Origin: Spirosoma aureum
GTDB lineage: Bacteria > Bacteroidota > Bacteroidia > Cytophagales > Spirosomataceae
Direction of reading: 5' to 3'
NCBI RefSeq assembly: GCF_011604685.1
Contig: NZ_CP050063.1
Coordinates: 6,055,001 to 6,119,000 of the forward strand
DNA: 64,000 bases
Position 1 is the stretch's first letter. Every line of letters starts with the position of its first letter. Below, in pieces: positions 24,202 to 44,070 of this stretch. A program made the position numbers and the translations under genes. Below the pieces are notes generated by a model that saw only the letters and a program-made list of their open reading frames with translations, was not told the origin of the DNA and did not search any database.

Positions 24202-25242
24202 ATGAGTACTAAAAAAACTTCGTTAAAGGATATAGCACAAAAAGCAGGGGTTTCTACCGCTCTAGTGTCCTATGTTCTGAATGGAAAGGAGAAAGAGAGC
24301 CGGGTTGGTCATGAAATTGCCCAAAAGATCAAGAAGATCGCGGCCGAATTGAATTACCAGCCTAATCACCTTGCCAAAAGTTTACGAAGCGGGAAAACGC
24401 ATACCATCGGCCTCATTATCGCCGATATATCGAACCCCTTCTTCGCCAACATAGCCAGGGTGGTTGAAGATGAAGCAAAGCACAATGGCTATACGGTCAT
24501 TATTGGTAGTTCCGACGAAAACGCAGGTAAATCGCGGGATTTATTGAATGTGTTGATCAATAGACAGGTTGATGGCTTTATTATAGTTTCCGCCGAAAAT
24601 TCTGAGGAACAGATTCATTACCTCAAAGACAAGAATATACCATTTGTTCTTTTAGATCGATATTTCCCGGAGATACCCACTGATTTTGTATCTACGGATC
24701 ATTATAAAGCGTCGTATGAAGCGTGTTCCCATTTGATTCGGAATGGCTATCAACGCATCGGAATGATTGCCTACGACTCGCAGATGTTCCACATGCAGGA
24801 ACGGATACGGGGCTATAAGGATTCGCTGAGAGATAATAACCGACACTTTCAAAAGTCCTGGTTAAAGGAAGTTCGAATCAATACAATTGAAAATGGAGTA
24901 AAAGCAGCCATTGATGAAATGCTGGCAACAGATCGCCCGGTTGATGCGATCCTATTTGCCACTTATAGCCTGGCAATCAATGGATTAAAATATATTAACG
25001 AATTGCGTTTGAACGTACCAGCCGATTTGGCTATTGTCAGTTTTGGGCAGGCAGAAGTATTTGAATTATACTATTGCCCGATCACTTACCTCAAACAGCC
25101 AATTGTCTTGCTGGGCCAGACAGCCGTTGAACTATTGGTCAAAAAATTGAAAAACAACCTAAACGAACCCGCACAAATACTAATGAAAGCCGAATTAGTA
25201 GAACGCGCGTCTTCAACGGCTAAACCTGTTGTCTCGACTTAA
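24202..25242 (+). CDS. LacI-family transcriptional regulator
   Basis: A DNA-binding sugar-responsive regulator, 346 residues, typical of the family. The N-terminal helix-turn-helix is 'SLKDIAQKAGVSTALVSYVL' (about 7-26), followed by the hinge helix 'YQPNHLAKSLRSGKTHTIG'. The rest is a periplasmic-binding-protein-like effector domain ('ADISNPFFANIARVVEDEA', 'NRQVDGFIIV', 'FVLLDRYFP'). Three matching operators lie before this gene, before the dehydratase at 25299 and before dgoD at 33150, so it probably controls itself and the sugar-acid island. The inducer is plausibly an aldonate or 2-keto-3-deoxy acid (inference). The ATG at 24202 gives the expected N-terminus just before the helix-turn-helix. 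Confidence 0.93.
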   Translation: MSTKKTSLKDIAQKAGVSTALVSYVLNGKEKESRVGHEIAQKIKKIAAELNYQPNHLAKSLRSGKTHTIGLIIADISNPFFANIARVVEDEAKHNGYTVIIGSSDENAGKSRDLLNVLINRQVDGFIIVSAENSEEQIHYLKDKNIPFVLLDRYFPEIPTDFVSTDHYKASYEACSHLIRNGYQRIGMIAYDSQMFHMQERIRGYKDSLRDNNRHFQKSWLKEVRINTIENGVKAAIDEMLATDRPVDAILFATYSLAINGLKYINELRLNVPADLAIVSFGQAEVFELYYCPITYLKQPIVLLGQTAVELLVKKLKNNLNEPAQILMKAELVERASSTAKPVVST

Positions 25243-25298: not shown

Positions 25299-26540
25299 AT
25301 GCAACGAAGATCTTTTCTTAAATCTGCTTTAGTAGGCTCAACTGCCGTGTGGGCTGGTCTGCCAGCAAGTTTGGCTCAGAGTGCACCCAAATTAAAAATT
25401 ACCAAGATTCGGTACTACAGTGCACCGGGTTATAACAAACCGCTTTTCAATCAGGCACGTGGCATTGTTGAGATTCAAACCGATGGCGGCATCATCGGTA
25501 TTGGCGAAGGTGGCTCAAAAGATATGATCGAGCAATGCGCTCAAATGATCATTGGCGAAGATCCATTCCGCATCGAGCATATCTGGCAGAGTGTCTATCG
25601 GGGTATGTTTTACCCACCGGGCCGTGAGAAATTACATGCACTCGGTGCGCTGGAAATGGCTTTGTGGGACATTAAAGGTAAAGCCTTAGGAGTTCCGGTC
25701 TATGAACTACTGGGAGGAGCCACACGAGACTATGTCGAATGCTACGCGACTGGTTTTCGGGCATCGAAAGCAAAAACGGAAGAAGAACGGGCAAGAGATT
25801 GTATAGAAGCAGGGTTGCGAGCCTACCGGATCGGACCAACGGGCGGAAACGGCGAAACCCCGTTCGATTTCTACGATAATGCTAAAAAGACCATTGAGCT
25901 ATGCAAACGAATCGATGCGGCTGTTGGGGGAGGTGGTAAATGGGCTATTGATCTGCACACCCGGTTTGACACCACCGAAGGCATAAAAATCTGCAAAGCC
26001 CTCGAGAATCTGGAGCCTTATTTCGTCGAAGACATTGTACGCTCCGAAAATCCGGACGTTTACAAAACCGTCCGGCAGATGACCACAGTACCCATTGCCG
26101 TTGGTGAACAATTCGGCGATCGATGGGACAGTAATACCTTCATTGAGCAACGCTTAATCGATTATACTCGCTTCACGATTCCCAATACGGGCGGTATATC
26201 TGAATTTAAGAAACTGGCGTCTATGTGCGAAACGCACTACGTTGGCATGATTCCGCACTTTACCGGCCCGCTCTCAACGGCCACGCTGGTGCATGTACTT
26301 GGTTCCAGCAGCCCAACCCGCTGTCTGATGGAACTGGGTGGCGGAGAACCAGAACGTCCTGCCTACTTCAACGAGGATTTCGTCAACTTCAAAAACGGTA
26401 AATTATACCTGAATCCAGAACCAGGACTGGGTGTCAAGTTCGACCCCAAGAAAGCAACGTTTGTTATGGAGGTTACTGCCAAAACTCAGTTCCCCCATCC
26501 TGTTCTAAAAAGCCCCGACGGAGCCATCCACAATTGGTAA
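25299..26540 (+). CDS. Secreted GalD-like acid-sugar dehydratase (enolase superfamily)
   Basis: An enolase-superfamily enzyme of the mandelate racemase subgroup, which removes water from an aldonate or uronate derivative to give a 2-keto-3-deoxy acid. A twin-arginine leader 'QRRSFLKSALVG' with a cleavage-like 'SLAQ' (about residue 27) marks it for export in folded form. Metal ligands and catalytic residues are D218, H220, E244, E270 and H320. Their spacings (26, 26, 50) equal those of GalD (D183, E209, E235, H285, from memory). The motifs differ from true DgoD ('VEDIV' for 'VEEPC', 'GEQFGDRW' for 'GERIF'), so the substrate may differ. It lies directly downstream of the regulator with an operator in between. 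Confidence 0.88.
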   Translation: MQRRSFLKSALVGSTAVWAGLPASLAQSAPKLKITKIRYYSAPGYNKPLFNQARGIVEIQTDGGIIGIGEGGSKDMIEQCAQMIIGEDPFRIEHIWQSVYRGMFYPPGREKLHALGALEMALWDIKGKALGVPVYELLGGATRDYVECYATGFRASKAKTEEERARDCIEAGLRAYRIGPTGGNGETPFDFYDNAKKTIELCKRIDAAVGGGGKWAIDLHTRFDTTEGIKICKALENLEPYFVEDIVRSENPDVYKTVRQMTTVPIAVGEQFGDRWDSNTFIEQRLIDYTRFTIPNTGGISEFKKLASMCETHYVGMIPHFTGPLSTATLVHVLGSSSPTRCLMELGGGEPERPAYFNEDFVNFKNGKLYLNPEPGLGVKFDPKKATFVMEVTAKTQFPHPVLKSPDGAIHNW

Positions 26541-26583
26541 CCGTATAGTACGCTTAACGACAACCTGAAAAAGAAAAGTAAAT

Positions 26584-26627
26584 AGCTACTGAAACCCAAC
26601 GCCTTAGTTGGGCCAGGTAGCTGTTTT
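26584..26627 (+). terminator. Hairpin terminator after the first dehydratase
   Basis: Outer arms AGCTAC (26584-26589) and GTAGCT (26617-26622) and inner arms CCCAA (26595-26599) and TTGGG (26608-26612), followed by GTTTTTAG. It separates the dehydratase from the susC unit. Confidence 0.6.
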
Positions 26628-26649
26628 TAGAGCCTTTAAAATTTTGAAC

Positions 26650-26674
26650 TATATCAATATTTATCATTGATATA
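26650..26674. promoter_or_regulatory. Palindromic site upstream of susC
   Basis: TATATCAAT (26650-26658) and ATTGATATA (26666-26674) are perfect inverted 9-base arms around 7 bases, 48 bases before the susC ATG. It is a candidate operator for a dimeric regulator and differs from the LacI-type site. Confidence 0.4.
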
Positions 26675-26721
26675 AGTGGATGATTTTTACCCTTTTCCTT
26701 TAACCTCAATCTCTACTACAC

Positions 26722-29700
26722 ATGAACAAAGCTCTAGTATTTCTTTTTTTTCTGCTTCTGAGCAGTGGCATTGCCCTGGCTCAGACAAACAGAATAACCG
26801 GCAAAGTGACTGGTCCCGACAGTCAGGGGCTACCAGGTGTTAACGTCCTGGTGGAAGGTACGGCTGTAGGTACGGCAACAGATGCAACAGGAAGTTATTC
26901 AATTAATGCCCCTGGCACTGGCTCATTGGTTTTTTCGTACATCAGCTATGTAACACAGACCATTCCGATCAATAATCGATCGATAGTTAATGTGCAACTG
27001 GCCGAGGATTCAAAAGCCATTGATGAAGTAGTCGTTACGGCATTAGGTATCAAGAGAGAGGCCAAAACACTGGGTTATGCAACAGCCACTGTCAATGCCG
27101 AACAGATTTCCGTCAACCGAACACCCAATTTCGTGAGCGGTCTACAAGGGAAAATGGCGGGTGTAAACATCACTACCATGGGAACGGGGCCAGCCGGAAC
27201 GGCCAAGATCCGGATTCGCGGTCAGTCGTCCTTTAGCGGCCAGAACAATCCGCTTATCGTTGTGAACGGCGTTCCGATCGACAATTCCAACTCTTCCCTT
27301 GGTGGTGATTTTGGGCCTCGTACCACAACGGGCCTCCCCAACAACAGTTCAGATGGGGGCGACGGCCTTTCCAGCATTAATCCCGATGATATTGAAACCA
27401 TGACCGTGTTGAAAGGAGCCACGGCCGCAGCCCTTTATGGATCACGCGCCAAAGACGGCGTTGTCATGATTACGACCAAAAGCCGGGGGGCTGGTAAAGG
27501 ATTTGGTGTAACATACAACACGAACTTCACCACCGATACGCCATTGGATTTTACTGATTTTCAGTACGAATACGGTCAGGGCGAAGGAGGGAAACGGCCA
27601 ACCACCACCAGGCCAACATCGGGCGTGTGGAGTTTTGGGGAGAAGTTTCAACCGGGCATGACGCAGGTGCTGTTCGATAACAAAACCTATCCCTATGAGC
27701 CGGTATACAATCGGGTGAAGCAGTTCTACCGTGTAGGCACCAACTTCACCAACACCGTAACCGTGGCAAATAACGGCCAAAACGGTGGTTTCAGCCTCTC
27801 GTTTGGTAACACCGACAACCGGGGGATTATGGAGAACAATACCTTCAACCGCAAAGTGATCAATCTGGGCTTCAGCCAGAATATCACGAGTAAGCTGACC
27901 GCTTCTGGAAACATTAATTACTCAAAGGAGAATAACATCAACCCACCCCAGCTGAATACGCAGGACTTTTCAGTATCGACGGTGGTTTTCACACTGGCCA
28001 ACTCCATGCCTTTCCAGGCCCTGCGGGATAATCAGACCGAGGCCAACGGCGATGAGTTTGTGTTTTCGCGCTTTCTGGTACGCAATAACCCGTACTATTC
28101 CATGAGCCGCCACTTTGAGAACATCCGGCGCGACCGTCTGTTCGGCAATGTGGCCCTGAAATACCAGTTTACCGACTGGCTGTATCTACAGGCAAGGGTT
28201 GCCCAGGATTTTTTCATCCGCAATCAGGATTATAATATTCCCAATGGATACGCTCCAATTGCCAAAGCCCCGGTTGGCTTCGTAAATGGCTCATATACAC
28301 AGGATGTACGTCAGAATACCGAACGAAATTTAGACTTTATTCTTGGTGGCAATAAAACGTTCGGAAAGTTTGGCGTGGATATAACCTTAGGGGGTAACGC
28401 ACGCTATGCCCGTAATGACTACAACAGCGTAACGGTGCAGGATTTCGTAAATCCGGGTCTATATACGGTTGCTAATGGCCGGATCAAAAATCCAATCTAT
28501 GCCCTTTCCGAGAAAAAAATCAATTCCCTGTTTGGAGCCGCAACCTTCTCTTACCGGGATTATCTGTTCCTGAACGTAACGGCCCGCAATGACTGGTTTT
28601 CGACGCTGGCCCCCTCTAACCGGAGCATTCTGTACCCATCCGTTACAGGTAGCTTTGTGTTCTCGCAGGCGTTTGAAAAACTACCCGCCTGGCTGTCGTT
28701 TGGTAAGTTACGGGCAGCCTACGCACAGGTGGGTTCCGATAACGTTGATCCTTATTCAAACGCGCTCTACTACGCTGTCGACAACAATTCATTCCCCAAT
28801 CCCGCTGGTCAACTCGTGCCGGTGGGTGGTATAAACGCAACGGTCGTTCCAAATAAAAACCTACGCCCGCTTCGTATTCAGGAAGCCGAAGTTGGCCTGG
28901 AATTGAAGCTGTTTGACAACAGGGTCGGCTTTGATTTCACATATTACCACAAAACGACCGACGATCAGATACTGGCCGCTCAGATTTCAGATGCTTCATC
29001 GTATACCAGCAAACTGATCAACGTGGGCAGGAGTATGAATCAGGGCCTTGAGATGTTGCTGACCTTTTCGCCCGTAAACACACCCGCTTTTCGGTGGGAT
29101 GTGAGCGCCAACGTTTCCTACAATACCTCGAAAGTTCTGCGTTTAGGTCTGTCGCCCAATGATACCGTCATTACGGTAAGCAGTGGTGGTGGCCGGACAC
29201 TGAATCAGGTAGTTGGCAAGCCTATCGGTCAACTCTACACTTTCACTTATCTGCGGGATGCGCAGGGACGGCAGGTGTTTGACCAGAATAGCGGTATGCC
29301 GCTCCGCAACAACAACCTGGTAAACGTAGGGAATGCCCTCCCAACTTACTTCGGCGGTATTACCAATACGTTCACCTATCGTGGGCTATCACTATCGGCC
29401 CTGATTGACTTCAAGCTGGGTCATAAAATGATTGCCGGTCGTAACATAAACTACATGCGTCATGGTTTGTCGAAACGGACGCTGCCCGGCCGGGATGTGG
29501 GTTATGTAATTGGCAACGGGGTCAATCCGAATGGGGAAATTAATCAGACCAAAGCTGCAGTACAGCCTTTCTACGAATCCATTAACCCACTGGGTATCAA
29601 TGAAGATTTTGTGTTCAATGCCGGATTCTGGAAACTGCGGCAGATTTCACTGGGCTATGATTTCAGCAAACTGCTTCCCCAGCGTCTTTTCATCAAAGGG

Positions 29701-29868
29701 CTGAAACTTAATGCGGTGGCCAATAATGTCCTGGTTATCAAGAAATGGACTGAAAATATGGACCCCGAAGAAGCGCTGGTTTCGTCAGACAATGCCGTAG
29801 GACTGGACTTCTGGCCGGGTCTGCCACCTACCCGCAGCATTGGTTTTAACTTAAATGTCAGATTTTAA
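26722..29868 (+). CDS. SusC-type TonB-dependent transporter (first pair)
   Basis: An outer membrane importer of oligosaccharides or sugar acids, powered by TonB, that pairs with a SusD lid. The 1048-residue protein has a signal peptide (ending in 'ALAQ', about 21), a carboxypeptidase-regulatory-like domain ('ITGKVTGPDSQGLPGVNV', about 25-105), then the plug starting near 'EVVVTALGIKREAKTLGYA', with 'GSRAKDGVVMITTKSR', and the 22-strand barrel ending in aromatic 'NLNVRF'. The SusD partner follows 96 bases on. Lying between sugar-acid dehydratase genes, it probably imports their substrate or a glycoside of it. Confidence 0.96.
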   Translation: MNKALVFLFFLLLSSGIALAQTNRITGKVTGPDSQGLPGVNVLVEGTAVGTATDATGSYSINAPGTGSLVFSYISYVTQTIPINNRSIVNVQLAEDSKAIDEVVVTALGIKREAKTLGYATATVNAEQISVNRTPNFVSGLQGKMAGVNITTMGTGPAGTAKIRIRGQSSFSGQNNPLIVVNGVPIDNSNSSLGGDFGPRTTTGLPNNSSDGGDGLSSINPDDIETMTVLKGATAAALYGSRAKDGVVMITTKSRGAGKGFGVTYNTNFTTDTPLDFTDFQYEYGQGEGGKRPTTTRPTSGVWSFGEKFQPGMTQVLFDNKTYPYEPVYNRVKQFYRVGTNFTNTVTVANNGQNGGFSLSFGNTDNRGIMENNTFNRKVINLGFSQNITSKLTASGNINYSKENNINPPQLNTQDFSVSTVVFTLANSMPFQALRDNQTEANGDEFVFSRFLVRNNPYYSMSRHFENIRRDRLFGNVALKYQFTDWLYLQARVAQDFFIRNQDYNIPNGYAPIAKAPVGFVNGSYTQDVRQNTERNLDFILGGNKTFGKFGVDITLGGNARYARNDYNSVTVQDFVNPGLYTVANGRIKNPIYALSEKKINSLFGAATFSYRDYLFLNVTARNDWFSTLAPSNRSILYPSVTGSFVFSQAFEKLPAWLSFGKLRAAYAQVGSDNVDPYSNALYYAVDNNSFPNPAGQLVPVGGINATVVPNKNLRPLRIQEAEVGLELKLFDNRVGFDFTYYHKTTDDQILAAQISDASSYTSKLINVGRSMNQGLEMLLTFSPVNTPAFRWDVSANVSYNTSKVLRLGLSPNDTVITVSSGGGRTLNQVVGKPIGQLYTFTYLRDAQGRQVFDQNSGMPLRNNNLVNVGNALPTYFGGITNTFTYRGLSLSALIDFKLGHKMIAGRNINYMRHGLSKRTLPGRDVGYVIGNGVNPNGEINQTKAAVQPFYESINPLGINEDFVFNAGFWKLRQISLGYDFSKLLPQRLFIKGLKLNAVANNVLVIKKWTENMDPEEALVSSDNAVGLDFWPGLPPTRSIGFNLNVRF

Positions 29869-29964
29869 TTTTTTATCAGGCCGTTCAGGTAGGAATCGTA
29901 AAGCAGGCCAACCCTCAATAGTTATCCTACACCGGAATGACAAAGACAAAAAACGATACAAATC

Positions 29965-31500
29965 ATGAAACCATATCTGAAATATACACTCGCACTGGTC
30001 TTCTCGCTGAGCCTGCTTACAGGCTGCGATAATGGCTTTGATGAGGTAAATACCAATAAGGTAGACCCTACATTTCTGGCCCCGTCTATGGTTCTCAATA
30101 AGGCCATTATCAATACCAACTACCTCGATGGGTTTGGTACGCTGGGTATGCTGACCTACAACTTCGGCATTGTTCAGCAGATCATTACGCCCTATGGCAG
30201 CTCGCTGTCGGGTGCCAATTACGATCAGGTAAACGGTAGCAATACACCTTTAGTCTGGACCAATTTTTACCGCAATGTGCTTAAGCAACTCGTGGCTGTA
30301 CTGGAGCAAACCAAGGGTGAACCGCTCCAGTCGAATACTTACAACGCGGCTCGTATCTGGAAAGCCTATGTGTTCATGATTCTGACCGATACCTATGGCG
30401 ATATCCCCTACTTTCAGGCAGGACAGGGTTACACGACAGAGATTATCACGCCTAAATACGATGCTCAGCAGGATATTTATAAAGACATTCTGAAGGAACT
30501 CGATGAAGCTTCGGCGGCTCTGACCACTACACAAACTCCGGTAGTTACCGATATTCTGTACGGTGGCGACGTAGCAAAGTGGAAAAAACTAGGATATTCT
30601 TTTATGCTACGGGCAGGTATGCGCCTGACGAAAGTTGATCCGGCAACGGCAGAAAGTTATGTCAAAAAAGCCGTGGCAGGTGGCGTATTTCAATCCAACG
30701 CCGACAATTCGACCCTTCGGCATACGGCAATCTATAACAACTACATTGCCAATCACTTAGCCGCCCGCGAAAAAACCAATTTCTACCTCGCAGCTCCCTT
30801 TGTGAATTACCTGAAAGAAAACAACGACCCCCGACTGCCTATTTTCGCCGTGCGCTACGTAGGTGCCAAAGGGGGCCAGGAACAAGTCGACGCACGCGCT
30901 ACCTCCGATCCGAAGCAACAGATCGGGATGCCGATGGGCTATAACGACGTATCGATTACAACGGTACTGGCCCAGAATGGCGTGGCCAGTCTCTGGGATT
31001 TCTCGCAGGTTAACCTCACCACAGTATTGAAGCTCGATGCTCCTGAATTTCATATCACCTACGCACAGGTTCAACTGTTGCTGGCAGAAGCGGCTGTTCG
31101 GGGATGGGTGTCGGGAACCGCTGCCGACTATTTTGCGAAGGGCGTTCGTGCCAATCTTGAGCAAATGGCGTCCTATGGGTCAACCATACCGGAAGCAACT
31201 ATAAAAGCGTATTTAGATGCTCACCCGCTGGATATGGCCAAAGCCCTCGACCTTATTAATACTCAATACTGGGTGGCCAGTTTCTTAGATGGCAATGAAG
31301 CCTTTGCCAATTTCCGGCGCAGTGGCTTTCCCGCGTTGAAGAAAAACCCTTATCCCGGCTCTGAAGTGAAAGGTGATTTCATTCGACGCATGCCTTACCC
31401 CGACAGTGAGATTGTCGTTAACTCGGGCAGCCTGAACGAAGCGATTACACGGCAGGGGCCCAATACACTCGATACGCGCGTATGGTGGGATAAAAAATAA
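29965..31500 (+). CDS. SusD-like lipoprotein (SusD/RagB-like family 2)
   Basis: The surface substrate-binding lid of the SusC before it. The 511-residue protein has a lipobox ('LSLLTGC', Cys22) and the tetratricopeptide-rich SusD fold. The N-terminus 'DNGFDEVNTNKVDPTFL' and 'ARIWKAYVFMILTDTYGDIP' resemble the SusD-like_2 branch rather than classic RagB/SusD, as do 'EFHITYAQVQLLLAEAAVRG' and the C-terminal 'NTLDTRVWWDKK'. It follows its SusC on the same strand, and the two are surely one operon. A structured intergenic element follows before manD. Confidence 0.93.
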   Translation: MKPYLKYTLALVFSLSLLTGCDNGFDEVNTNKVDPTFLAPSMVLNKAIINTNYLDGFGTLGMLTYNFGIVQQIITPYGSSLSGANYDQVNGSNTPLVWTNFYRNVLKQLVAVLEQTKGEPLQSNTYNAARIWKAYVFMILTDTYGDIPYFQAGQGYTTEIITPKYDAQQDIYKDILKELDEASAALTTTQTPVVTDILYGGDVAKWKKLGYSFMLRAGMRLTKVDPATAESYVKKAVAGGVFQSNADNSTLRHTAIYNNYIANHLAAREKTNFYLAAPFVNYLKENNDPRLPIFAVRYVGAKGGQEQVDARATSDPKQQIGMPMGYNDVSITTVLAQNGVASLWDFSQVNLTTVLKLDAPEFHITYAQVQLLLAEAAVRGWVSGTAADYFAKGVRANLEQMASYGSTIPEATIKAYLDAHPLDMAKALDLINTQYWVASFLDGNEAFANFRRSGFPALKKNPYPGSEVKGDFIRRMPYPDSEIVVNSGSLNEAITRQGPNTLDTRVWWDKK

Positions 31501-31504
31501 ACAG

Positions 31505-31640
31505 CTCTTTAACTTCTTGCCGCAGAAGGCTGCCTGGGGGTGCGCTTACACATCGTAGACACCCACCGATAACTAATTCTGTAGAGAACCTTTGTCGTCG
31601 GTGTACCTCCGGGCGGAATTCTACGGCAAGAACACAGTCT
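31505..31640. repeat. Imperfect long inverted element upstream of manD
   Basis: TTCTTGCCG (31514-31522) and CGGCAAGAA (31624-31632) are perfect 9-base ends, and the adjoining bases continue partial complementarity (CAGAA/TTCT). CTTTAAC also flanks the left end and recurs just right of the other end. The roughly 120-base interior has further partial pairs. It could be a terminator/leader structure or the remnant of a small mobile repeat. Confidence 0.4.
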
Positions 31641-31661
31641 TTAACTCTTACTTTTCTCTTT

Positions 31662-33017
31662 ATGAATCAACTTGATCAAAGTCGCCGGGATACGCTGAAA
31701 ATGTTGGGTATGGGCTCCTCCGCCGGACTCCTCAGCCTGTTCGGTGGACTCTCCACGGCCCAGGCTCGCGAACAACTAGCCACCCCACGATACGCCGTGG
31801 GGGCAGCACCCGTCAAAATCAAAGCCGTCAAAGCCATCGCCACCGCCCCACAAGGCTCCAACCTCATCGTCGTTAAGGTCGAAACCACCGAACCCGGTCT
31901 CTATGGGCTCGGTTGCGCCACCTTCACCCAACGAGCCGCTACCGTCATCGTCGCCATCAACACCTACCTCAACGAATTCTGCGTCGGTAAAGACGTCGAT
32001 AACATCGAGGATATGTGGCAGGCGGCCTACGTCAGCTCCTACTGGCGAAACGGACCCGTCCTCAACAATGCCCTCTCCGGACTCGATCAGGCCCTGTGGG
32101 ACATCAAAGGAAAACGAGCCGGTATGCCCGTCTACCAGCTCCTGGGGGGTAAAGTCCGGTTCGCCATCCCCTGTTACACCCATGCCGGAGGCAATACCCC
32201 CGAAGCAGCCGCCGACAGCGTCAAAAAATTCATGGCCGATGGCTTCAAATACATCCGCATCCAGCAGGGTGGCTATGGTGCCGTCGGCGCTACGGCCGAT
32301 AAACCCGATTTCAAAGTGGCCAACTTCGGGGGCGAGACCGACAACTACATGAATGAGCGGCTCTACCTGAAATCGGTGCCCAAGATGTTTGAGGTGGTTC
32401 GTAAGGAGTGTGGCGAGGAGATCGAGCTGTTGCATGACATCCACGAGCGGGTGCAGCCCATCGATGCCATCAATATGATCAAGCGGGTAGAGGAGTTCCG
32501 GCCGTTCTTCATCGAAGATCCCTTCTCGCCCGAGAACATGAAGTGGTTTGCCCAGTTGCGGCAGGCCACCTCGGTGCCCATTGCTATGGGGGAATTGTTC
32601 AACAACATCAACGAGTTCAAGGAGCCGATGGTCAATCAATGGTTTGATTTCATCCGGATCCACGTTTCCCAGATCGGGGGCATCAGCCCGGCCATGAAGG
32701 TAGCCCGGTTGGGGGAATGGTTCAACATCCGCACGGCCTGGCATGGACCGGGGGATGTTTCGCCGGTGGGTCATGCGGCCCATGCGCACATCGATCTGGC
32801 GGTGTGGAATTTTGGGATTCAGGAAGCGGTGCAGTTTTCGGAGAAGACGCAGTCGGTCTTCAGTGGCTGTCCGACGATGAACAAGGGGTACATGTCGGTC
32901 AATGAGGTGCCGGGTTTGGGGGTGGACATCAACGAGAAGGAGGCTGCCAAGTATCCCATCAGCACCAAGTCGAACTGGCAGGTGCGCAAGATGGATGGCA
33001 CTATTATCAGACCGTAA
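31662..33017 (+). CDS. manD: Secreted D-mannonate dehydratase (ManD/RspA type)
   Basis: An enolase-superfamily dehydratase that would convert D-mannonate (some homologues prefer D-gluconate) to 2-keto-3-deoxygluconate. D259, H261, E285, E311 and H361 match NaManD D210, H212, E236, E262 and H312 (from memory) with a constant offset of 49. 'LHDIHERV', 'FFIEDPF', 'MGELFN' and 'AWHGPGDVSPVGHAA' are ManD hallmarks. The extra 49 N-terminal residues are a twin-arginine leader ('SRRDTLKMLG', cleavage-like 'TAQA'). The 451-residue gene is odd in base use: its first half is C-rich and its second half G-rich on the coding strand, switching near 32340. It is framed by an inverted element and a perfect hairpin. 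Confidence 0.92.
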   Translation: MNQLDQSRRDTLKMLGMGSSAGLLSLFGGLSTAQAREQLATPRYAVGAAPVKIKAVKAIATAPQGSNLIVVKVETTEPGLYGLGCATFTQRAATVIVAINTYLNEFCVGKDVDNIEDMWQAAYVSSYWRNGPVLNNALSGLDQALWDIKGKRAGMPVYQLLGGKVRFAIPCYTHAGGNTPEAAADSVKKFMADGFKYIRIQQGGYGAVGATADKPDFKVANFGGETDNYMNERLYLKSVPKMFEVVRKECGEEIELLHDIHERVQPIDAINMIKRVEEFRPFFIEDPFSPENMKWFAQLRQATSVPIAMGELFNNINEFKEPMVNQWFDFIRIHVSQIGGISPAMKVARLGEWFNIRTAWHGPGDVSPVGHAAHAHIDLAVWNFGIQEAVQFSEKTQSVFSGCPTMNKGYMSVNEVPGLGVDINEKEAAKYPISTKSNWQVRKMDGTIIRP

Positions 33018-33027
33018 CTTATTTCCG

Positions 33028-33067
33028 GGATTCACTTTGGGCTGTGATTTCAGCCCAAAGTGAATCC
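33028..33067 (+). terminator. Perfect hairpin terminator after manD
   Basis: 17-base perfect arms at 33028-33044 and 33051-33067 with a 6-base loop (core TTTGGGCTG/CAGCCCAAA). It comes 10 bases after the manD stop and just before the operator of dgoD, so dgoD starts a new transcript. Confidence 0.75.
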
Positions 33068-33105
33068 ACTTCACATTACTCCTATTAGCCCTTCAGTTTT
33101 GACTA

Positions 33106-33124
33106 TTTGCTTAAACGATTAAAT
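33106..33124 (+). promoter_or_regulatory. LacI-type operator upstream of dgoD
   Basis: TTTG followed by CTTAAACGATTAAAT. The first 12 bases of the palindrome are identical to the site at 25255 and the right end is degenerate. It lies 25 bases before the dgoD ATG and overlaps a possible -33 TTTG, as at the other two sites. Confidence 0.6.
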
Positions 33125-33149
33125 GAGCTACACCTTTACCCAATAAACA

Positions 33150-34397
33150 ATGAAATCACCAAACAAGAAATCAGGCATATCCCGCCGTTCGGCCATACAG
33201 TCGGTACTGGGTGTAGCAGGTATGGGGTCGATGGTACTTCCTCAGACGTCATATGCCGCCAGTCCCGGACACTTTGTCGATTACAGCAAAGTAAAGATTA
33301 CAAAACTTGAGACCTTTCTGGTCAAACCCCGTTGGATTTTCCTGAAAATCCATACCGATGTTGGCGTTTATGGGTTAGGCGAACCGCTTCTGGAAGGCCG
33401 GGCACTAACCATCCAGACCGCCATTAAGGAAGTCGAACCTTATTTGATCGGCAAAGACCCCCGGCAGGTTGTTCACCATTGGCAGGCTATCTATCGTCAT
33501 GCATTCTACCGCGGTGGCCCCATCCTGACGAGTGCCCTGAGTGGCATCGACCACGCGCTCTGGGATATTAAAGGCAAACTGTTGAACGTACCTGTTTATG
33601 AACTGCTTGGGGGTCCCACCCGCGACCGAGTTCGGGTTTATGGCCGGGCCAGCAATGCTGAAGACATGAAGAAGCGGAAGGCCGAAGGATACACGGTGAT
33701 TAAGACAGGTGTTGCCAAAAAGAACCCCGCCAACATTGTCGAAAATCCGCAATTCATTAAATACGCTGTCGACAATTTTGCATCATTACGCGAAGCGGGT
33801 GGCCCCGAAATGGACATAGCCATTGACTTTCACGGGTCCATTTCGCCCCAAACGGCAAAAGTGCTCATCAAACAGCTGGAGCCGTTCCAACCTATGTTCG
33901 TTGAGGAACCCTGTCAGGCCCAGAACGTAGACACGATGGTCGACATTGCCAGAGGGACGCATTTGCCAATCGCTACCGGCGAACGCATTTTCACGAAATG
34001 GGGATTCCGCGAAATTCTGGAAAAAGGAGCTGCTAGCATCGTACAGCCTGACCTCTGCCATGCCGGTGGTATTACGGAAGGACGCCTGATCGCGGGTATG
34101 GCCGAAGCATACTACGTTCCCATTGCTCCGCATAACCCGATGGGGCCAATTTCTCTGGCAGTTGGGTTGAATCTGGCAGCCAGTGTACCCAATTTTCTGG
34201 TACAGGAGCAGGTCTCCCTGGGTGAAGGCTATCTCAAGAATCCCTTCAAATTACAAAGCGACGGCACAGTTCTCATTCCGAAAGGACCGGGTCTGGGCGT
34301 CGAACTGGACGAAGCGCTGATGAAAGACAAAATCGGCCACGACTGGAAAAATCCCGAAACATACAATGCCCTCGACGGATCAGTAGTGGATTGGTAA
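33150..34397 (+). CDS. dgoD: Secreted D-galactonate dehydratase
   Basis: Dehydrates D-galactonate to 2-keto-3-deoxy-D-galactonate, the first step of the De Ley-Doudoroff route. D226, H228, E252, E278 and H328 match E. coli GalD D183, H185, E209, E235 and H285 (from memory) with a constant offset of 43. 'IDFHGSI', 'VEEPC', 'TGERIFTKWGFREILE', 'QPDLCHAGGITE' and 'APHNPMGPISLA' are DgoD hallmarks. The 43 extra residues form a twin-arginine leader ('SRRSAIQSVLG', then 'TSYAAS'). E. coli DgoD is cytosolic, so export is unusual. The matching kinase, aldolase and carrier are 8 kb downstream on the same strand. An operator and promoter lie just upstream. Confidence 0.93.
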   Translation: MKSPNKKSGISRRSAIQSVLGVAGMGSMVLPQTSYAASPGHFVDYSKVKITKLETFLVKPRWIFLKIHTDVGVYGLGEPLLEGRALTIQTAIKEVEPYLIGKDPRQVVHHWQAIYRHAFYRGGPILTSALSGIDHALWDIKGKLLNVPVYELLGGPTRDRVRVYGRASNAEDMKKRKAEGYTVIKTGVAKKNPANIVENPQFIKYAVDNFASLREAGGPEMDIAIDFHGSISPQTAKVLIKQLEPFQPMFVEEPCQAQNVDTMVDIARGTHLPIATGERIFTKWGFREILEKGAASIVQPDLCHAGGITEGRLIAGMAEAYYVPIAPHNPMGPISLAVGLNLAASVPNFLVQEQVSLGEGYLKNPFKLQSDGTVLIPKGPGLGVELDEALMKDKIGHDWKNPETYNALDGSVVDW

Positions 34398-34491: not shown

Positions 34492-37482
34492 ATGGAAAGA
34501 ACTCTAAAATTTTTCGTTTTTCTGCTGCTTCTGAGCCAGAGCTATGCTTTTGCCCAGAATACCAGAGTGACTGGTAAAGTCACCGGCCCCGACAATCAGG
34601 GGCTACCGGGCGTAAACGTGCAGGTTAGTGGTACCTCACTCGGTACAGCCACCGATGCCTCGGGCAACTTTTCGCTGAATGCAGCGGGAAATGCCTCCCT
34701 GGTCTTTTCAAATATTGGCTATGTGAGCCAAACGGTTCCGGTAAACGGCCGCACTGCAATCAACGTCCAGTTGGCCGAAGATTTAAAAACACTCAACGAA
34801 GTGGTTGTCGTTGGTTATGGTACACAGCGCAAAACCGATGTAACGGGCGCATTGACGGCTATTTCAACCAAAGAATTTGCCCAGCAACCCGTTACCCGTC
34901 TGGATCAGGTGTTGCAGGGGCGGGCTGCGGGTGTGCAGGTCAGTCAGACCAATGGGGCTCCGGGTGGCGATGCCCGAATCAGAATCAGGGGAGCCAATTC
35001 GGTATTGGGTAGTAACAATCCACTCTATGTCGTCGACGGGTTCGTTGGTGCTGATTTTAACTTCGTCAACCCCAATGACATTGAAACCATTCAGATATTG
35101 AAAGATGCCGCATCGACGTCCATTTATGGTAGTCGCGGGGCGAATGGCGTCGTGATCATTACGACCAAAAAAGGATCGAAAGGTCTCAAAGTCAACTATG
35201 AAGGTCAGTTCAGTACGTCGGAGGTCATCAAAAAATACGATGTATTACCGGCCGGTGAATTTGCCGAAATCGTTAATGCCCGGGCTACGGCTACTGGCTC
35301 CAACCTGCCATTCACAAGCGATCAGATCGCCCAGTTCAAACAAAATGGCGGCACCGACTGGCAGAGCCTTGTGTTTCGGAATGGGAGTGGCCAGCAACAC
35401 CAGATTACACTGTCGGGTGGTAGTGATAAAACAACCTTTCTGGTATCGGGAAACTATTTGAATCAAAATGGTATCGTCAATAACAGTGGGTTTAAGCGGT
35501 ATAACCTGCGGACCAACATAAATACGCAGATCAACGATAAGCTTTCGTTTCGCTTGAATCTGTGGGGTACGCGGTCGCAAAATCACAACACGCTCGACGG
35601 TGGCGCCATTGTTCAGGCACTGGCCTGGGCACCGACAACACCGGCCTACGGTGCCGATGGTCAGCCGACGTTTACGGACCCAATTGGCTCCGTTTATCGT
35701 AATCCGCTGGATTACCTCTATGATCAATCAGTCGATGCGAACCGTAGTGGTATCAACATCAATGGTGGGTTAAACTATAAACTTCCCATCAAAGGTCTGA
35801 CGATCGATTTGCAGTACGCCGTCAATTACCTGAATGCGCAAAACCTGAATTTAAACGGTAAGCGGCTCTCGAACAACGTACCGACGGCAAGCCGGTATTC
35901 GGCGGAGCAGGTGACACTCCAAAACACGAACAATTTGAATTACGACGTCAAAATCGGCAATCACTCGATTAACGCCGTTGCCGTTCTGGAGACACAGCAA
36001 TTCACCAATAGAGACTTTACTGCCAGTGCGTCAGGGCTGCGGTTTCCGCAATTAGGTTATGACAACATCGGCGGTAATACAGCTGCAACCGTGGCTTCGA
36101 GTTACCAGAAATGGACATTGCTGTCGTTGCTGGGGCGTGTAAACTACGGATACAAAGACAAATACCTGGTATCAGCGGCTGTCCGGCGCGATGGATCATC
36201 CAAGTTTGGTAAGGATAATAAGTACAGTGTTTTCCCGTCGGTAGCTTTGGGATGGCGGTTATCCGAAGAAGAGTTTATCAAAAAACTTAACGTATTCAAT
36301 AACCTGAAACTACGGGGAAGCTGGGGTATGACGGGTAGCCAGGCCATTAACCCCTACGCTACTATTTCAACGTATAGTACAGCAGTTTCAGCATTCAACA
36401 ACTCGGCGGCTACGGCCGGGGTACTGCTGGGTAACCCCGGTAACCCGGATCTCAAATGGGAAACAACCAAGCAGGTCGATGTTGGTCTGGAAATGGAATT
36501 CCTGAATGGTCGACTACGTATTGAAGCCGATTACTTCAAGAAGAACACAACTGATCTGCTCCTGAACGTAGCGATTCCAAGCTATGCCGGTGGTGGTACG
36601 CAAGCCCGGAACGTAGGTGAAGTTGAGAACCAGGGATTTGAATTTTCGATCGGTGGCACGCCACTGGCAGCTGGTAGCTTCCGTTGGGAGACAAATCTGA
36701 ATTTCTCTACCTTAAAAAATCAGGTGATCAGTTTAGGTGGTCTGCCACGACTAGGTCAGGGTACGGGCGTCGGCGCGGGTATGTCTACGACCAACGAGTT
36801 TATGCTTATACCGGGTGAGCCACTGGGTTCCTATTGGGGCCTGAATTATCTGGGAACCTGGAAGCCAAACGAAGCCGATGCTGCAGCCAAGCAGGGGCGC
36901 GTACCGGGTGATCCGCATTACCAGGATCTCAATGGCGACAACGCAATTACTACGGATGACTTTCAGATTATTGGCCGGGCTTTCCCGAAAGCAACGGGCG
37001 GATGGAACAACACGTTTACGTATAAAGGACTGACCCTGAACGTATTCTTCAACGGCGTATTTGGTGTCGATAAGCTTAACTACACCCGGGCGGCTGCCCT
37101 GTCGGGTTCTGGCGATGCACGGCAGTTCATTCTGTCGGAGATCCGGGATTACTACCGGCCAGGCAATGAAACGTCGAACGTACCAGCGTTTACCAAAACG
37201 TATCAGCCCTTCACGCAGTCGAGCCGGTTCCTGGAAGATGGTAGCTTCGTTCGCCTGAAAAACGTAAGTCTGTCGTACAATTTACCAACGGGTTTCCTTA
37301 AAAACAAAGCCAACATCCGGGTATTTGCCAGCGCCACGAACCTGTTTACGATCACAAAATACAAAGGTCCAGATCCAGAATCGGCTCGGGTAGGTTCGAA
37401 CACCGATACCGCCATCGGTATTGACTATGGCTCTTATCCAAACGCCAAACAATATACTCTCGGTATCAACCTGGGCTTCTAA
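34492..37482 (+). CDS. SusC-type TonB-dependent transporter (second pair)
   Basis: Outer membrane importer, 996 residues. The signal peptide ends at 'YAFAQ' (about 22), the carboxypeptidase-like domain starts 'VTGKVTGPDNQGLPGVNV', and a TonB-box-like segment 'EVVVVGYGTQRK' leads into the plug ('RIRGANSVLGSNNPLYVVDG', 'GSRGANGVVIITTKKG') and the barrel, which ends in 'LGINLGF'. Its first 110 residues are very similar to the SusC at 26722, which points to duplication within the island, but the barrels differ. The SusD gene follows after only 15 bases. It probably imports a galactose-containing saccharide or galactonate. Confidence 0.96.
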   Translation: MERTLKFFVFLLLLSQSYAFAQNTRVTGKVTGPDNQGLPGVNVQVSGTSLGTATDASGNFSLNAAGNASLVFSNIGYVSQTVPVNGRTAINVQLAEDLKTLNEVVVVGYGTQRKTDVTGALTAISTKEFAQQPVTRLDQVLQGRAAGVQVSQTNGAPGGDARIRIRGANSVLGSNNPLYVVDGFVGADFNFVNPNDIETIQILKDAASTSIYGSRGANGVVIITTKKGSKGLKVNYEGQFSTSEVIKKYDVLPAGEFAEIVNARATATGSNLPFTSDQIAQFKQNGGTDWQSLVFRNGSGQQHQITLSGGSDKTTFLVSGNYLNQNGIVNNSGFKRYNLRTNINTQINDKLSFRLNLWGTRSQNHNTLDGGAIVQALAWAPTTPAYGADGQPTFTDPIGSVYRNPLDYLYDQSVDANRSGININGGLNYKLPIKGLTIDLQYAVNYLNAQNLNLNGKRLSNNVPTASRYSAEQVTLQNTNNLNYDVKIGNHSINAVAVLETQQFTNRDFTASASGLRFPQLGYDNIGGNTAATVASSYQKWTLLSLLGRVNYGYKDKYLVSAAVRRDGSSKFGKDNKYSVFPSVALGWRLSEEEFIKKLNVFNNLKLRGSWGMTGSQAINPYATISTYSTAVSAFNNSAATAGVLLGNPGNPDLKWETTKQVDVGLEMEFLNGRLRIEADYFKKNTTDLLLNVAIPSYAGGGTQARNVGEVENQGFEFSIGGTPLAAGSFRWETNLNFSTLKNQVISLGGLPRLGQGTGVGAGMSTTNEFMLIPGEPLGSYWGLNYLGTWKPNEADAAAKQGRVPGDPHYQDLNGDNAITTDDFQIIGRAFPKATGGWNNTFTYKGLTLNVFFNGVFGVDKLNYTRAAALSGSGDARQFILSEIRDYYRPGNETSNVPAFTKTYQPFTQSSRFLEDGSFVRLKNVSLSYNLPTGFLKNKANIRVFASATNLFTITKYKGPDPESARVGSNTDTAIGIDYGSYPNAKQYTLGINLGF

Positions 37483-37497
37483 ACTCTTTGATGAATC

Positions 37498-38970
37498 ATG
37501 AAAAAATTATTAATAATTGGAATGGCGGCCATGCTCACGGCAGGCTGTAAAGGTTACCTCGAAGAAGATACTACGGGGCTATTATACGGTGGAAACGTTC
37601 TTTCGACCCAGGACGGACTGGAATCGGCCCTGACCGGAGCCTACCGGGGCCTGGGTAACCAATGGACCTACGGGTTCCTGCACCCATCGGCCAATGCCGC
37701 TACCATTGGCAGCGACGACGTAACGACGCACCCAGCCAGTAATAAAGCCGACTGGCGCGAATTCGATCAGTTTAACGTATCAACCACGAATCAGCGGTCG
37801 GGTGCGGTCTATAATGGTTGTTATAAAGCGATTCAGGGTGCAAACAACGTAATCAATAACTACGCAAAAACAGTCGGAACCAAAGCAACGATCGACATTA
37901 TTGCAGGTGAAGCTTTTTTCATTCGTGGGTTTTCCTACTACTGGTTAACCCGCTTTTATGGCAACATTCCGCTGGTGCTGGCGGGTGAATATTCGGCGGA
38001 TCTGCTCACCATCAAAAAATCGACACCAGCCGAGGTATACGCTCTGATCGTTGAGGACCTTAAAAAAGCCGAAACGATGCTACCCGACACCCGTCGCGAT
38101 CCAGGTCGGCCCAATGCTGGAGCTGCCAAGGCTTTCCTGGCGGATGTGTATCTGACCATGGCGGGCTGGCCACTGAAACAAGCTGATAAATACGATCTGG
38201 CTGCGGCTAAAGCCAAAGAGGTAATCGACAATCGGACTAAATACGGATTTCAGTTGATGCCGACGTTCGCGGCTGTTTTCGACAATGATCCGGCGGTGGC
38301 CATTATTCCGGAATCGGTGTTTCAGATCAATGGATTTACGGGTGGCAGCGGTACGGCCAACGCAACCTATGGCAACACCACAATGCCGGGCGAAGAAGGT
38401 GGCTGGGACGATATGTTTGCCGAGCTTAATTTCTTCAAAAACTTCCCAGCAGGTCCACGCAAAGATGCTACGTTCCGGACTCAGTTCGGTTTGGGTGCTA
38501 CCACAATTCCCTGGGAGCAAAGCCTGACGAAACATCCGTACTACAAAAAATGGTACATCAAAGGCAATGTCGTTACGTCAAGTATCTCGCTGCCATCTGT
38601 CATGATGCGCTACCCTCATGTGTTAACCATCTATGCAGAAGCCAAAGCGCGTGGTACGGGTGGACCTGACCAGGCTGCCTATGATGCACTGAATCAGGTT
38701 CGTCTACGGGGTTTACCAGCAGGAGCTAAAGCACTTTCACCCGGCGATGGGCTTACTGCCGCTCAATTTGCCGATGCGGTAGTGCAGGAACGAGCCTGGG
38801 AATTTGCCTGCGAGCGTACCCGTTGGTTTGACCTGATCCGGCTTGAAAAAGTGGAGGAAGCCAATGCCGCCAAAAGCCCCGACGATCTGCAACCGATCAA
38901 GCCAATCACCAAGGCAAATTACTGGTTTACGCTGCCTTATACGGATACATCGATCAACCCGAATTTGTAA
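37498..38970 (+). CDS. SusD/RagB-type lipoprotein (second pair)
   Basis: The surface-exposed partner of the SusC at 34492, 490 residues. The lipobox is 'MLTAGC' (Cys17). 'SALTGAYRGLGNQWTYG', 'GEAFFIRGFSYYWLTRFYGN' and 'YALIVEDLKKAETMLP' are the usual RagB/SusD N-terminal features, and 'VVQERAWEFACERTRWFDLI' is the C-terminal signature. It is translated right after SusC in one operon. A compact hairpin follows the stop. Confidence 0.95.
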   Translation: MKKLLIIGMAAMLTAGCKGYLEEDTTGLLYGGNVLSTQDGLESALTGAYRGLGNQWTYGFLHPSANAATIGSDDVTTHPASNKADWREFDQFNVSTTNQRSGAVYNGCYKAIQGANNVINNYAKTVGTKATIDIIAGEAFFIRGFSYYWLTRFYGNIPLVLAGEYSADLLTIKKSTPAEVYALIVEDLKKAETMLPDTRRDPGRPNAGAAKAFLADVYLTMAGWPLKQADKYDLAAAKAKEVIDNRTKYGFQLMPTFAAVFDNDPAVAIIPESVFQINGFTGGSGTANATYGNTTMPGEEGGWDDMFAELNFFKNFPAGPRKDATFRTQFGLGATTIPWEQSLTKHPYYKKWYIKGNVVTSSISLPSVMMRYPHVLTIYAEAKARGTGGPDQAAYDALNQVRLRGLPAGAKALSPGDGLTAAQFADAVVQERAWEFACERTRWFDLIRLEKVEEANAAKSPDDLQPIKPITKANYWFTLPYTDTSINPNL

Positions 38971-39040: not shown

Positions 39041-40015
39041 TTGAAAAAGGTAGCTATCGCTTCACTTGTATTTTTCAGTTTGTGTGGTAGCACCCTACCA
39101 CAGGCAGAATGGCCACAGGCTGAGCTGTCGAATGGCGTCATTCAAACGACTCTGTACCTACCCGATAAACAACAGGGCTATTATCAGGGTACTCGATTCG
39201 ATTGGTCAGGGGCCTTCAAAACGCTCACTTACAAAGGCCATAGTTTCGTTGATCAGTGGTTTGAAACCTATGACCCCAAACTGCATGATGCTATAAACGG
39301 GCCCGTTGAGGAATTTACTCCCCTGAACTACGCTGAAGCCAAACCCGGTGAAACGTTTGTAAAAATAGGCGTGGGATTACTCCGAAAAGCCGATGAAAAA
39401 CCCTATGCTTTTGCCAGGTATTATGACGTAGCCGATTATGGGAACTGGAAGGTCAACCGACAGAAAGATCGGGTTGAGTTTACACACGAACTGACGGATC
39501 AAGCAGGCTACGGTTATGTCTACCGGAAAACGGTCAGGCTCGTTCAGGGAAAGCCGGAACTGGTGCTGGAGCATAGTCTCAAAAACACGGGTAAAAACCC
39601 GATAAAGACGAGCGTGTATGACCACAACTTTTTTGTAATGGATAAACAACCGACGGGTCCTGAAATCCAGGTTCAGTTTCCATTTGATGTAAAAGCAGAG
39701 GGAAAGGGCTTTGGGAGCGTTATTCTGGCCCAGGGTAAACAACTGAATTACGCCCGCGATCTGGAGAAAAAAGAACAAGTCTACAGTGCTGGTTTACAAG
39801 GCTTTACTTCTACTTCCAGTGCGTATGACATTCGGATCGAGAACCTAAAAACAGGAGCAGGTGTGCACATTACCAGCGATCAGCCCATGGAAAAATTAGT
39901 TTATTGGGCCTGCGCCACCACTTCCTGCCCAGAGCCATACATCCGGCTCGAAGCGGCTCCCGGTCAGGAAATAAAGTGGAAAATTGCGTACGAATTCTAC
40001 GAAAAAACGAAATAG
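39041..40015 (+). CDS. Secreted mutarotase-like protein of unknown function
   Basis: A 324-residue exported protein. The best start is a TTG at 39041, which gives MKKVAIASLVFFSLCGSTLP, a good signal peptide; there is no nearby ATG in frame. The mature part is beta-rich and resembles the galactose mutarotase-like superfamily: 'ELSNGVIQTTLYLPD', 'GYYQGTRFDWSGAF', 'LVLEHSLKNTGKNPIKTSVY' and 'DHNFFVMD', in which the His may correspond to a conserved mutarotase His. It could interconvert sugar anomers before the PQQ dehydrogenase encoded next (inference). It lies between two hairpins, so it may have its own transcript. Confidence 0.7.
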   Translation: MKKVAIASLVFFSLCGSTLPQAEWPQAELSNGVIQTTLYLPDKQQGYYQGTRFDWSGAFKTLTYKGHSFVDQWFETYDPKLHDAINGPVEEFTPLNYAEAKPGETFVKIGVGLLRKADEKPYAFARYYDVADYGNWKVNRQKDRVEFTHELTDQAGYGYVYRKTVRLVQGKPELVLEHSLKNTGKNPIKTSVYDHNFFVMDKQPTGPEIQVQFPFDVKAEGKGFGSVILAQGKQLNYARDLEKKEQVYSAGLQGFTSTSSAYDIRIENLKTGAGVHITSDQPMEKLVYWACATTSCPEPYIRLEAAPGQEIKWKIAYEFYEKTK

Positions 40016-44018: not shown

Positions 44019-44070
44019 GCCTGTTTCACCGTTGACCTTACCAAAATCAGCCAGAGTAAACTTCACTTTT

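Follow-up and report, generated by a model that had tools for sequence, protein, structure and literature searches.

Acid-sugar dehydratases are treated as cytosolic enzymes, and the catabolism of galactonate and mannonate is placed in the cell accordingly. Does this placement hold for three enolase-superfamily proteins (ENO1, ENO2 and ENO3) encoded in a 64,000-nucleotide stretch of the Spirosoma aureum genome (the window; positions 6055001-6119000 of one 8.9 Mb contig, NZ_CP050063.1), each of which begins with a twin-arginine (RR) leader? The first-pass annotation of this DNA had suggested that aldonates are dehydrated outside the cytoplasm, in an uncommon form of the galactonate/mannonate pathway in which the 2-keto-3-deoxy acid is what crosses the inner membrane. 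The reading that we favor, and consider fairly probable, is that the island containing the three genes encodes a split sugar-oxidation pathway, with oxidation and dehydration in the periplasm, import of the keto acid, and a kinase and an aldolase in the cytosol. Comparison with related sequences establishes the elements from which this reading is built, namely conserved RR leaders, intact catalytic sets, a leaderless kinase and aldolase, and conserved linkage.

Twin-arginine leaders and catalytic residues of ENO1, ENO2 and ENO3

The three open reading frames (ORFs), their RR motifs and the D-x-H/E/E/H spacing of 26, 26 and 50 residues noted in the first-pass annotation were rechecked and borne out. 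Each protein contains a single match to DxH-(26)-E-(26)-E-(50)-H (D218/H220/E244/E270/H320 in ENO1, D259/H261/E285/E311/H361 in ENO2 and D226/H228/E252/E278/H328 in ENO3), and the N and C MR_MLE domains of all three score over the Pfam cut-offs, placing them in the MR/MLE part of the enolase superfamily. ENO3, whose closest solved structure is 3rr1, passes the galactonate dehydratase model NF010624 (441.5 bits against a cut-off of 311), which ENO1 (204) and ENO2 (233) fail. The nearest solved structures of ENO1 are of the D-mannonate dehydratase (ManD) kind, and those of ENO2 are 3t6c, 4ihc and 3tw9, with the alignment running from residue 49-53 to the end of ENO2. The ManD model NF043051 (cut-off 550) is reached neither by ENO2 (390) nor by ENO1 (208.6, its best NCBIfam match), and ENO2 also falls below NF011654 (382 against 430). 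The first-pass annotation had further equated the displacement of the catalytic residues relative to galactonate dehydratase (GalD) and ManD, by offsets of 35, 43 and 49, with the lengths of the leaders. Using reference residue numbers that we take to be those of GalD and ManD, the arithmetic is right, but the equality is rough: for ENO3, internal gaps bring the net shift to 43, while the N-terminal extension over leaderless DgoD is 47 residues by alignment count.

The RR pair occupies residues 3-4 in ENO1, 8-9 in ENO2 and 12-13 in ENO3. Among the best 120 relatives of each protein, taken from lists of 7,990, 8,000 and 7,513 matches, RR falls within the first 45 residues in 120 relatives of ENO3, 118 of ENO2 and 116 of ENO1. 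An A-x-A or S-x-A lies 12-36 residues past RR in 111, 116 and 101 of these RR-bearing relatives, respectively, and a stricter rule that includes an uncharged hydrophobic run holds for 119, 114 and 91 of the best 120. Related loci were represented by the best 80 of 569 named loci, all retrieved through ENO3. At an identity of at least 60% (with L001-L009 and matches covering <60% of the query left out, and L090-L101 from the window's own genome included), the RR-leader rule is followed by 52/52 ENO1, 48/50 ENO2 and 75/80 ENO3 orthologues; the leaders are thus conserved in close homologues, a test that the first-pass annotation had set for its own proposal. Seven orthologues fall short: five lie in frames that have no start codon (two ENO2, three ENO3), one is in L078, where the contig begins, and one is in L089, where the start is misplaced and an RR leader is present from a later start. 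As a background, 20 of 575 other ORFs in the 80 loci (at least 250 residues, any start in the first 60 residues) follow the same rule, and some of these resemble true substrates of twin-arginine translocation (Tat). In an alignment of 25 ENO3 relatives that span Bacteroidota, Acidobacteriota, Planctomycetota and Omnitrophota, no column among the first 47 is invariant except R12 and R13. The predicted ENO3 model, fair as a whole (mean confidence 75.1), has confidence <50 across residues 1-41. ENO1 was found in 20 of 61 genomes of the family to which the window's genome belongs, and all 20 proteins align from residue 1. The RR leaders are, by these comparisons, not chance.

The features of a Tat substrate (twin arginine, hydrophobic stretch, A-x-A-like site and conservation in orthologues) are present, and the genome encodes TatC (215 bits at 1176513-1177217), on which alone the presence of the Tat translocase was judged. 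RR leaders were found in none of 36 relatives of the island's 2-keto-3-deoxygalactonate kinase (DGOK) and none of 37 relatives of its aldolase (DGOA). The database name of one relative, P0187, begins 'Twin-arginine translocatio', which indicates that the leader has already been seen by annotation pipelines.

Leader-bearing and leaderless galactonate dehydratase homologues

In a survey of 296 genomes of the phylum (GalD-type matches at E<=1e-60, at most 6 candidates scored per genome), 18 GalD-type matches were found in 13 genomes. Three of these, at 91-100% identity and including that of the window's own genome, start at residue 1, and the remaining 15, at 35-50% identity, have no leader. Leaderless GalDs begin close to ENO3 residue 48, where the leader ends; GalD genes on annotated plasmid records from Pseudomonadota, Bacillota and Halobacteria start no more than one codon from this residue in nine of nine cases. 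A similar division is seen among 108 GalD-type sequences, of which 81 bear a leader and are at least 72% identical to mature ENO3, 26 are leaderless and at most 48.4% identical, and one (L078) lies at a contig edge. In a tree of 60 of these sequences (33 of the 81 with leaders and all 27 others), which was built by a quick method, is unrooted and carries long-branch warnings among the leaderless sequences, the leader-bearing sequences and L078 fall on one side of a branch with a support of 99 in the Shimodaira-Hasegawa-like approximate likelihood ratio test (SH-aLRT), and one change explains the leader label. Both kinds of GalD occur in a Segetibacter locus (L067), one leaderless at 45% identity and the other leader-bearing at 80%. 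One clade, with members in Bacteroidota, Acidobacteriota, Planctomycetota and Omnitrophota, carries leaders as a rule, so that 'uncommon', as the first-pass annotation described the arrangement, fits only in part: the leaders are clade-wide over four phyla, yet the exported clade occurs in only 3 of the 296 phylum genomes, own genome counted.

Within the window's own genome, scoring of 6 of 17 candidates left ENO3 as the sole GalD-type match at E<=1e-60, and the other alignable enolase-superfamily proteins are approximately 30% identical or less. An RR near the start was read in 8 of 15 MR_MLE_C proteins, including one (L096) that fails the hydropathy rule, and the other seven lack it. With the sole GalD-type match leader-bearing and DGOK leaderless, a keto acid that ENO3 makes for DGOK would have to pass the inner membrane. 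Conservation of the leaders, their restriction to a separate clade and the split within the island between proteins with and without leaders make export of the dehydratases well supported at the level of sequence, and this part of the first-pass proposal stands; galactonate or mannonate as the substrate and the crossing of the keto acid are what we infer in addition.

The island and its proposed pathway

The island consists of genes on one strand, from a LacI-family regulator to a major facilitator superfamily (MFS) transporter, in the order LacI, ENO1, SusC/D, ENO2, ENO3, SusC/D, a mutarotase-fold protein (ALDE), a pyrroloquinoline quinone (PQQ)/cytochrome c dehydrogenase, DGOK, DGOA and MFS (Table 1). 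ALDE belongs to no Pfam family, and profile and sequence searches with it gave nothing usable, so that its fold was assigned by fold search. The PQQ protein exceeds the cut-off of PF01011 and falls below that of TIGR03074 (479 bits against 832). Both proteins have signal-like hydrophobic starts, read by eye only. A simple hydropathy rule for Sec leaders proved unspecific, as it also flags 36 of 39 LacI proteins, and its results were left unused.

Table 1. Genes and leaders of the island, with positions counted from the first nucleotide of the window. KDPG, 2-keto-3-deoxy-6-phosphogluconate; KDPGal, the corresponding galactonate.
Feature	Position	Strand	Basis
LacI-family regulator, island gene 1	24202..25242	+	PF00356 and Peripla_BP over cut-off; orthologue in 36/52 full-length loci
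ENO1 leader, residues 1-31	25299..25391	+	MQRRSFLK start, hydrophobic stretch, cleavage possible around S-L-A / S-A-P (read from sequence)
ENO1, enolase-superfamily dehydratase-like protein, 413 aa	25299..26540	+	Catalytic set; ManD-kind nearest structures
SusC-like TonB-dependent outer-membrane transporter 1	26722..29868	+	Translation read by eye; orthologue in 38/52 full-length loci
SusD-like lipoprotein 1	29965..31500	+	Translation read by eye; orthologue in 37/52 full-length loci
ENO2 leader, residues 1-49	31662..31808	+	RR at 8-9, A-Q-A at 33-35; solved relatives align from residue 49-53
ENO2, putative ManD subgroup protein, 451 aa	31662..33017	+	NCBIfam scores, solved relatives
ENO3 leader, residues 1-47	33150..33290	+	S-R12-R13-S-A-I-Q, S-Y-A at 34-36
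ENO3, galactonate dehydratase homologue of exported clade, 415 aa	33150..34397	+	NF010624, nearest solved 3rr1, tree
SusC-like transporter 2	34492..37482	+	Translation read by eye; 23/52 full-length loci
SusD-like lipoprotein 2	37498..38970	+	Translation read by eye; 23/52 full-length loci
ALDE, galactose-mutarotase-fold protein, signal-like start	39041..40015	+	Fold search
PQQ-type aldose dehydrogenase with cytochrome c domain ~490-569	40100..42328	+	PF01011 638 bits; PF13442, PF00034 over cut-off
DGOK, 2-keto-3-deoxygalactonate kinase, leaderless	42352..43359	+	PF05035 202 bits
DGOA, KDPG/KDPGal-type aldolase, leaderless	43356..44018	+	TIGR01182 179.6 vs cut-off 156
MFS transporter related to DgoT	43996..45375	+	TIGR00893 238.9 bits (cut-off 395, not reached); DgoT 6e9n nearest among solved structures

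Linkage was counted in the 52 full-length loci, which have 10 kb on both sides of ENO3, with a gene counted from 40% identity (33% for DGOK). ENO1 is present in 46 of these loci, followed by ENO2 (39), DGOK (34), DGOA (33), and the PQQ protein and the MFS transporter (27 each). DGOK occurs in all 27 loci with the PQQ protein; the seven loci with DGOK and without the PQQ protein are Adhaeribacter L060 and six from Larkinella. In the first 2.6 kb of five of the six Larkinella loci (L013, L016, L019, L022 and L025), a divergent gene set of the molybdenum aldehyde-oxidase type, whose first protein bears an RR leader, lies beside LacI; in L013, on which alone Pfam was run, an RR-leader 2Fe-2S subunit is followed by flavin adenine dinucleotide (FAD) and molybdopterin subunits.

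In the split pathway, the two SusC/D pairs would admit sugars or oligosaccharides to the periplasm, where the aldose dehydrogenase, which has a cytochrome c domain of its own, would oxidize an aldose to an aldonate with help from the mutarotase-fold protein. The three dehydratases, exported folded by Tat, would convert aldonates, still in the periplasm, to 2-keto-3-deoxy acids. Import of the keto acid would fall to the DgoT-like MFS transporter, and the cytosolic kinase and aldolase would finish its breakdown. Actual export, cleavage of the leaders, the substrates, the order of the steps and the MFS cargo are what we infer in this scheme. If it is correct, part of the sugar metabolism of Bacteroidota (and of some Acidobacteriota, Planctomycetota and Omnitrophota) would shift to the periplasm, which would change the transporter substrates to look for and predicts leakage of 2-keto-3-deoxy acid to neighbors.

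It is also conceivable, although highly improbable in our view, that the exported proteins serve a side function, such as periplasmic clearance or epimerization of oxidized sugars, and are not catabolic dehydratases. The absence of DGOK within 10 kb in 18 of the 52 full-length loci, including those of Cyclobacterium and Lunatimonas and the only two outside Bacteroidota (L084 and L088), would fit such a role. However, the ENO genes are linked with the kinase, the aldolase and the MFS transporter in Spirosoma, Larkinella and Dyadobacter loci, and a leaderless KDPG-type aldolase adjoins ENO3 in the Acidobacteriota loci L083 and L089 and lies 3.5 kb away in L088.

Together with the loci lacking DGOK and the altered loops of the exported clade described below, several observations weigh against the split pathway. 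The linkage was seen from the ENO3 side only, as all loci were found through ENO3. The genome encodes a leaderless arabinonate-dehydratase-like IlvD/EDD protein (808.7 bits, below the cut-off of 882) and two leaderless UxuA-type proteins, by which aldonates could be dehydrated in the cytosol. No lactonase was noticed among the island genes, and for PQQ synthesis PqqC gave no match in the genome and PqqE none over the cut-off, a result in which no control genome passed either. The Tat models are also below threshold: PF10518 (cut-off 22.7) gives 18.0 bits for ENO1 and 12.5 for ENO2, TIGR01409 (cut-off 16.7) gives 13.7 and 14.1, and neither matches ENO3. The Tat consensus has F-L-K after the twin arginine, where the ENO3 motif has A-I-Q, and a genome-wide scan for Tat signals, of little weight either way, returned 74 weak matches and 7 over the cut-off, with ENO1 and ENO2 among the weak ones and ENO3 absent. 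The curated Tat models were dropped as proof of export because their cut-offs were not reached, and conservation was used instead.

These sub-threshold scores would suit a reading in which the leaders are genuine Tat or Sec signals of low efficiency, the relevant enzyme pool is cytosolic and the MFS transporter imports aldonate as DgoT does. This seems very unlikely to us, as RR could hardly have stayed invariant over several phyla had export not been selected for. The transporter gives arguments on both sides. When the window protein and 15 of 31 MFS hits (at least 55% identity, >380 residues aligned) were compared to DgoT 6e9n, the carboxylate and proton residues Y44, D46, R47, Y79 and E133 were kept in 16/16, as aldonate import would have it, but Q164, Q264, S370 and N393 were replaced in 16/16 (T/K/T/G in the window protein). 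The latter four are described as holding the galactonate hydroxyls in DgoT (PMC6532931). Transporters closer to DgoT (L104, L112 and L113) keep all four, and those adjoining dgoD in Rahnella and Pantoea lack them, which weakens the argument against aldonate import. The MFS pocket was for this reason demoted as proof of a keto-acid substrate, and the binding-site comparison appears ambiguous in this regard.

The substrates of the exported enzymes can be addressed by comparing 82 sequences of the exported clade with 20 leaderless GalDs (7 of the 27 leaderless sequences, contig-edge L078 and the distant L128-L133, were dropped). Directly past the first barrel strand, a W-G-G-D stretch is absent in 82/82 exported-clade sequences and present in 19-20 of the 20 leaderless ones, and a second stretch near residue 361 has also been lost; both are kept at 90-100% in the leaderless GalDs. 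The exported clade additionally has 17 clade-specific substitutions, with the catalytic residues common to both clades. The WGGD loop as a galactonate dehydratase feature is a proposal from this alignment and stands outside the curated NF010624 definition. Without it, the exported clade may act on a substrate other than galactonate, and galactonate as the ENO3 substrate is therefore unsure; annotation as galactonate dehydratase reflects homology and score without an identical pocket. It is possible, if unlikely, that the enzymes are exported but have different or larger sugar acids as their substrates (aldobionates, pentonates or uronate-derived acids), set free or formed in the periplasm. In addition to the lost stretches, this would suit ENO1, which is near no equivalog, ENO2, which is under the ManD cut-off, and the four to six RR-leader enolases of some clusters, more than one sugar needs. 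Against it, the two clades share 97 nearly invariant columns, catalytic ones included, ENO3 scores over the galactonate dehydratase cut-off, and DGOK, whose family takes monomeric 2-keto-3-deoxygalactonate, is linked in 34 of the 52 full-length loci.

Known systems and other leader-bearing dehydratases

ENO3 shares its fold family, catalytic set and spacing with DgoD/GalD of the dgo operon (DeLey-Doudoroff pathway), and enterobacterial dgo clusters resemble the island in having 2-keto-3-deoxygalactonate kinase, aldolase and MFS genes as neighbors. ENO3 differs in its 47-residue RR leader, its separate clade, the loss of the WGGD and residue-361 stretches, and its linkage with SusC/D and PQQ/cytochrome c genes. 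ENO2 resembles the ManD/RspA subgroup in its alignment with 3t6c, 4ihc and 3tw9 and in its catalytic set, but has an RR leader of ~49 residues and scores below both ManD-type cut-offs. In periplasmic glucose oxidation, a membrane PQQ glucose dehydrogenase makes gluconate outside the cell's inner membrane; the island likewise has a PQQ dehydrogenase of the TIGR03074 kind that would act before the inner membrane, but with a cytochrome c domain of its own, a TIGR03074 score below the cut-off, and leader-bearing dehydratases alongside. PaoABC is a Tat-exported periplasmic molybdenum aldehyde oxidase, to which the 2Fe-2S, FAD and molybdopterin genes beside the island in L013, the first with an RR leader, are similar; the molybdenum set was seen in the five Larkinella loci and not in the window.

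The nearest described route in Bacteroidota appears to be that for 3,6-anhydro-D-galactose in Zobellia (dauA-D), which likewise passes through 2-keto-3-deoxy-D-galactonate, with an enolase-superfamily enzyme and the kinase and aldolase for this compound (PMC5698469). As described there, periplasmic glycosidases free the monosaccharide, which is taken up first, and the acid is produced by an NAD(P)-dependent dehydrogenase, in contrast to the leader-bearing acid-making and dehydrating enzymes of the island. The DeLey-Doudoroff pathway has been reconstructed (PMC5507952), and D-galactonate dehydratase is named in PMC6262041, with no mention of an export leader in the part of that article considered. 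Among the titles and abstract beginnings listed by searches of the open-access literature, subscription papers being mostly outside this scope, no exported galactonate or mannonate dehydratase was found. The family and the pathway are known, and the proposed periplasmic location appears new as far as these searches show.

Leaders of the same kind occur on an unrelated fold. The window's own genome encodes a UxuA-type mannonate dehydratase (L138, G000:C1:5301902-5302846; 264.7 bits against a cut-off of 191) with a GTG start and an RR leader beginning VKNTRRRFIKQSASFAALS; of the UxuA-type proteins in this genome, one has an RR leader, two are leaderless and one has a KR-type start. On contigs of the Daejeonella/Sphingobacteriaceae type (L044:3833-15054, L043, L036, L042 and L074), four to six different RR-leader enolases lie close together, and Daejeonella-type L043 and L044 also encode an RR-leader UxuA-type protein and an RraA-like protein whose start is signal-like (Pfam run on L044 only). 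With somewhat less than even confidence, we suggest that oxidation and dehydration, the upper half of a sugar-acid pathway, were transferred together to the periplasm in a widespread lineage, that two unrelated folds (enolase superfamily and UxuA) have gained Tat leaders for this purpose, and that, given the signal-like start of the RraA-like aldolase, the Daejeonella-type route to pyruvate may be wholly extracytoplasmic. If so, oxidation would feed electrons straight to the respiratory chain, and only the committed 2-keto-3-deoxy acid would be imported.

Several minor observations concern the same protein types. The UxuA/xylose-isomerase-like protein L139 (G000:C1:8780295-8781152) has a KR-type signal-like start, MMKRKNFIRVIAAGSVGAAAW, and lies shortly before a leaderless enolase-superfamily gene. 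In the PQQ dehydrogenase of the island (window 40100-42328), the cytochrome c domain is placed between propeller stretches and not at an end, and about nine such proteins are encoded in the genome. Further clusters with a mutarotase-fold protein, a PQQ dehydrogenase and an RR-leader ENO2 are found in the same genome at L098 (G000:C1:7322000-7340000) and L097; their ENO2 proteins are 99% and 74% identical to the window copy, respectively, the former pointing to a recent duplication. Finally, an open frame of 432 codons runs antisense to ENO2 (window 31776-33074, minus strand) and is probably a shadow of codon usage.

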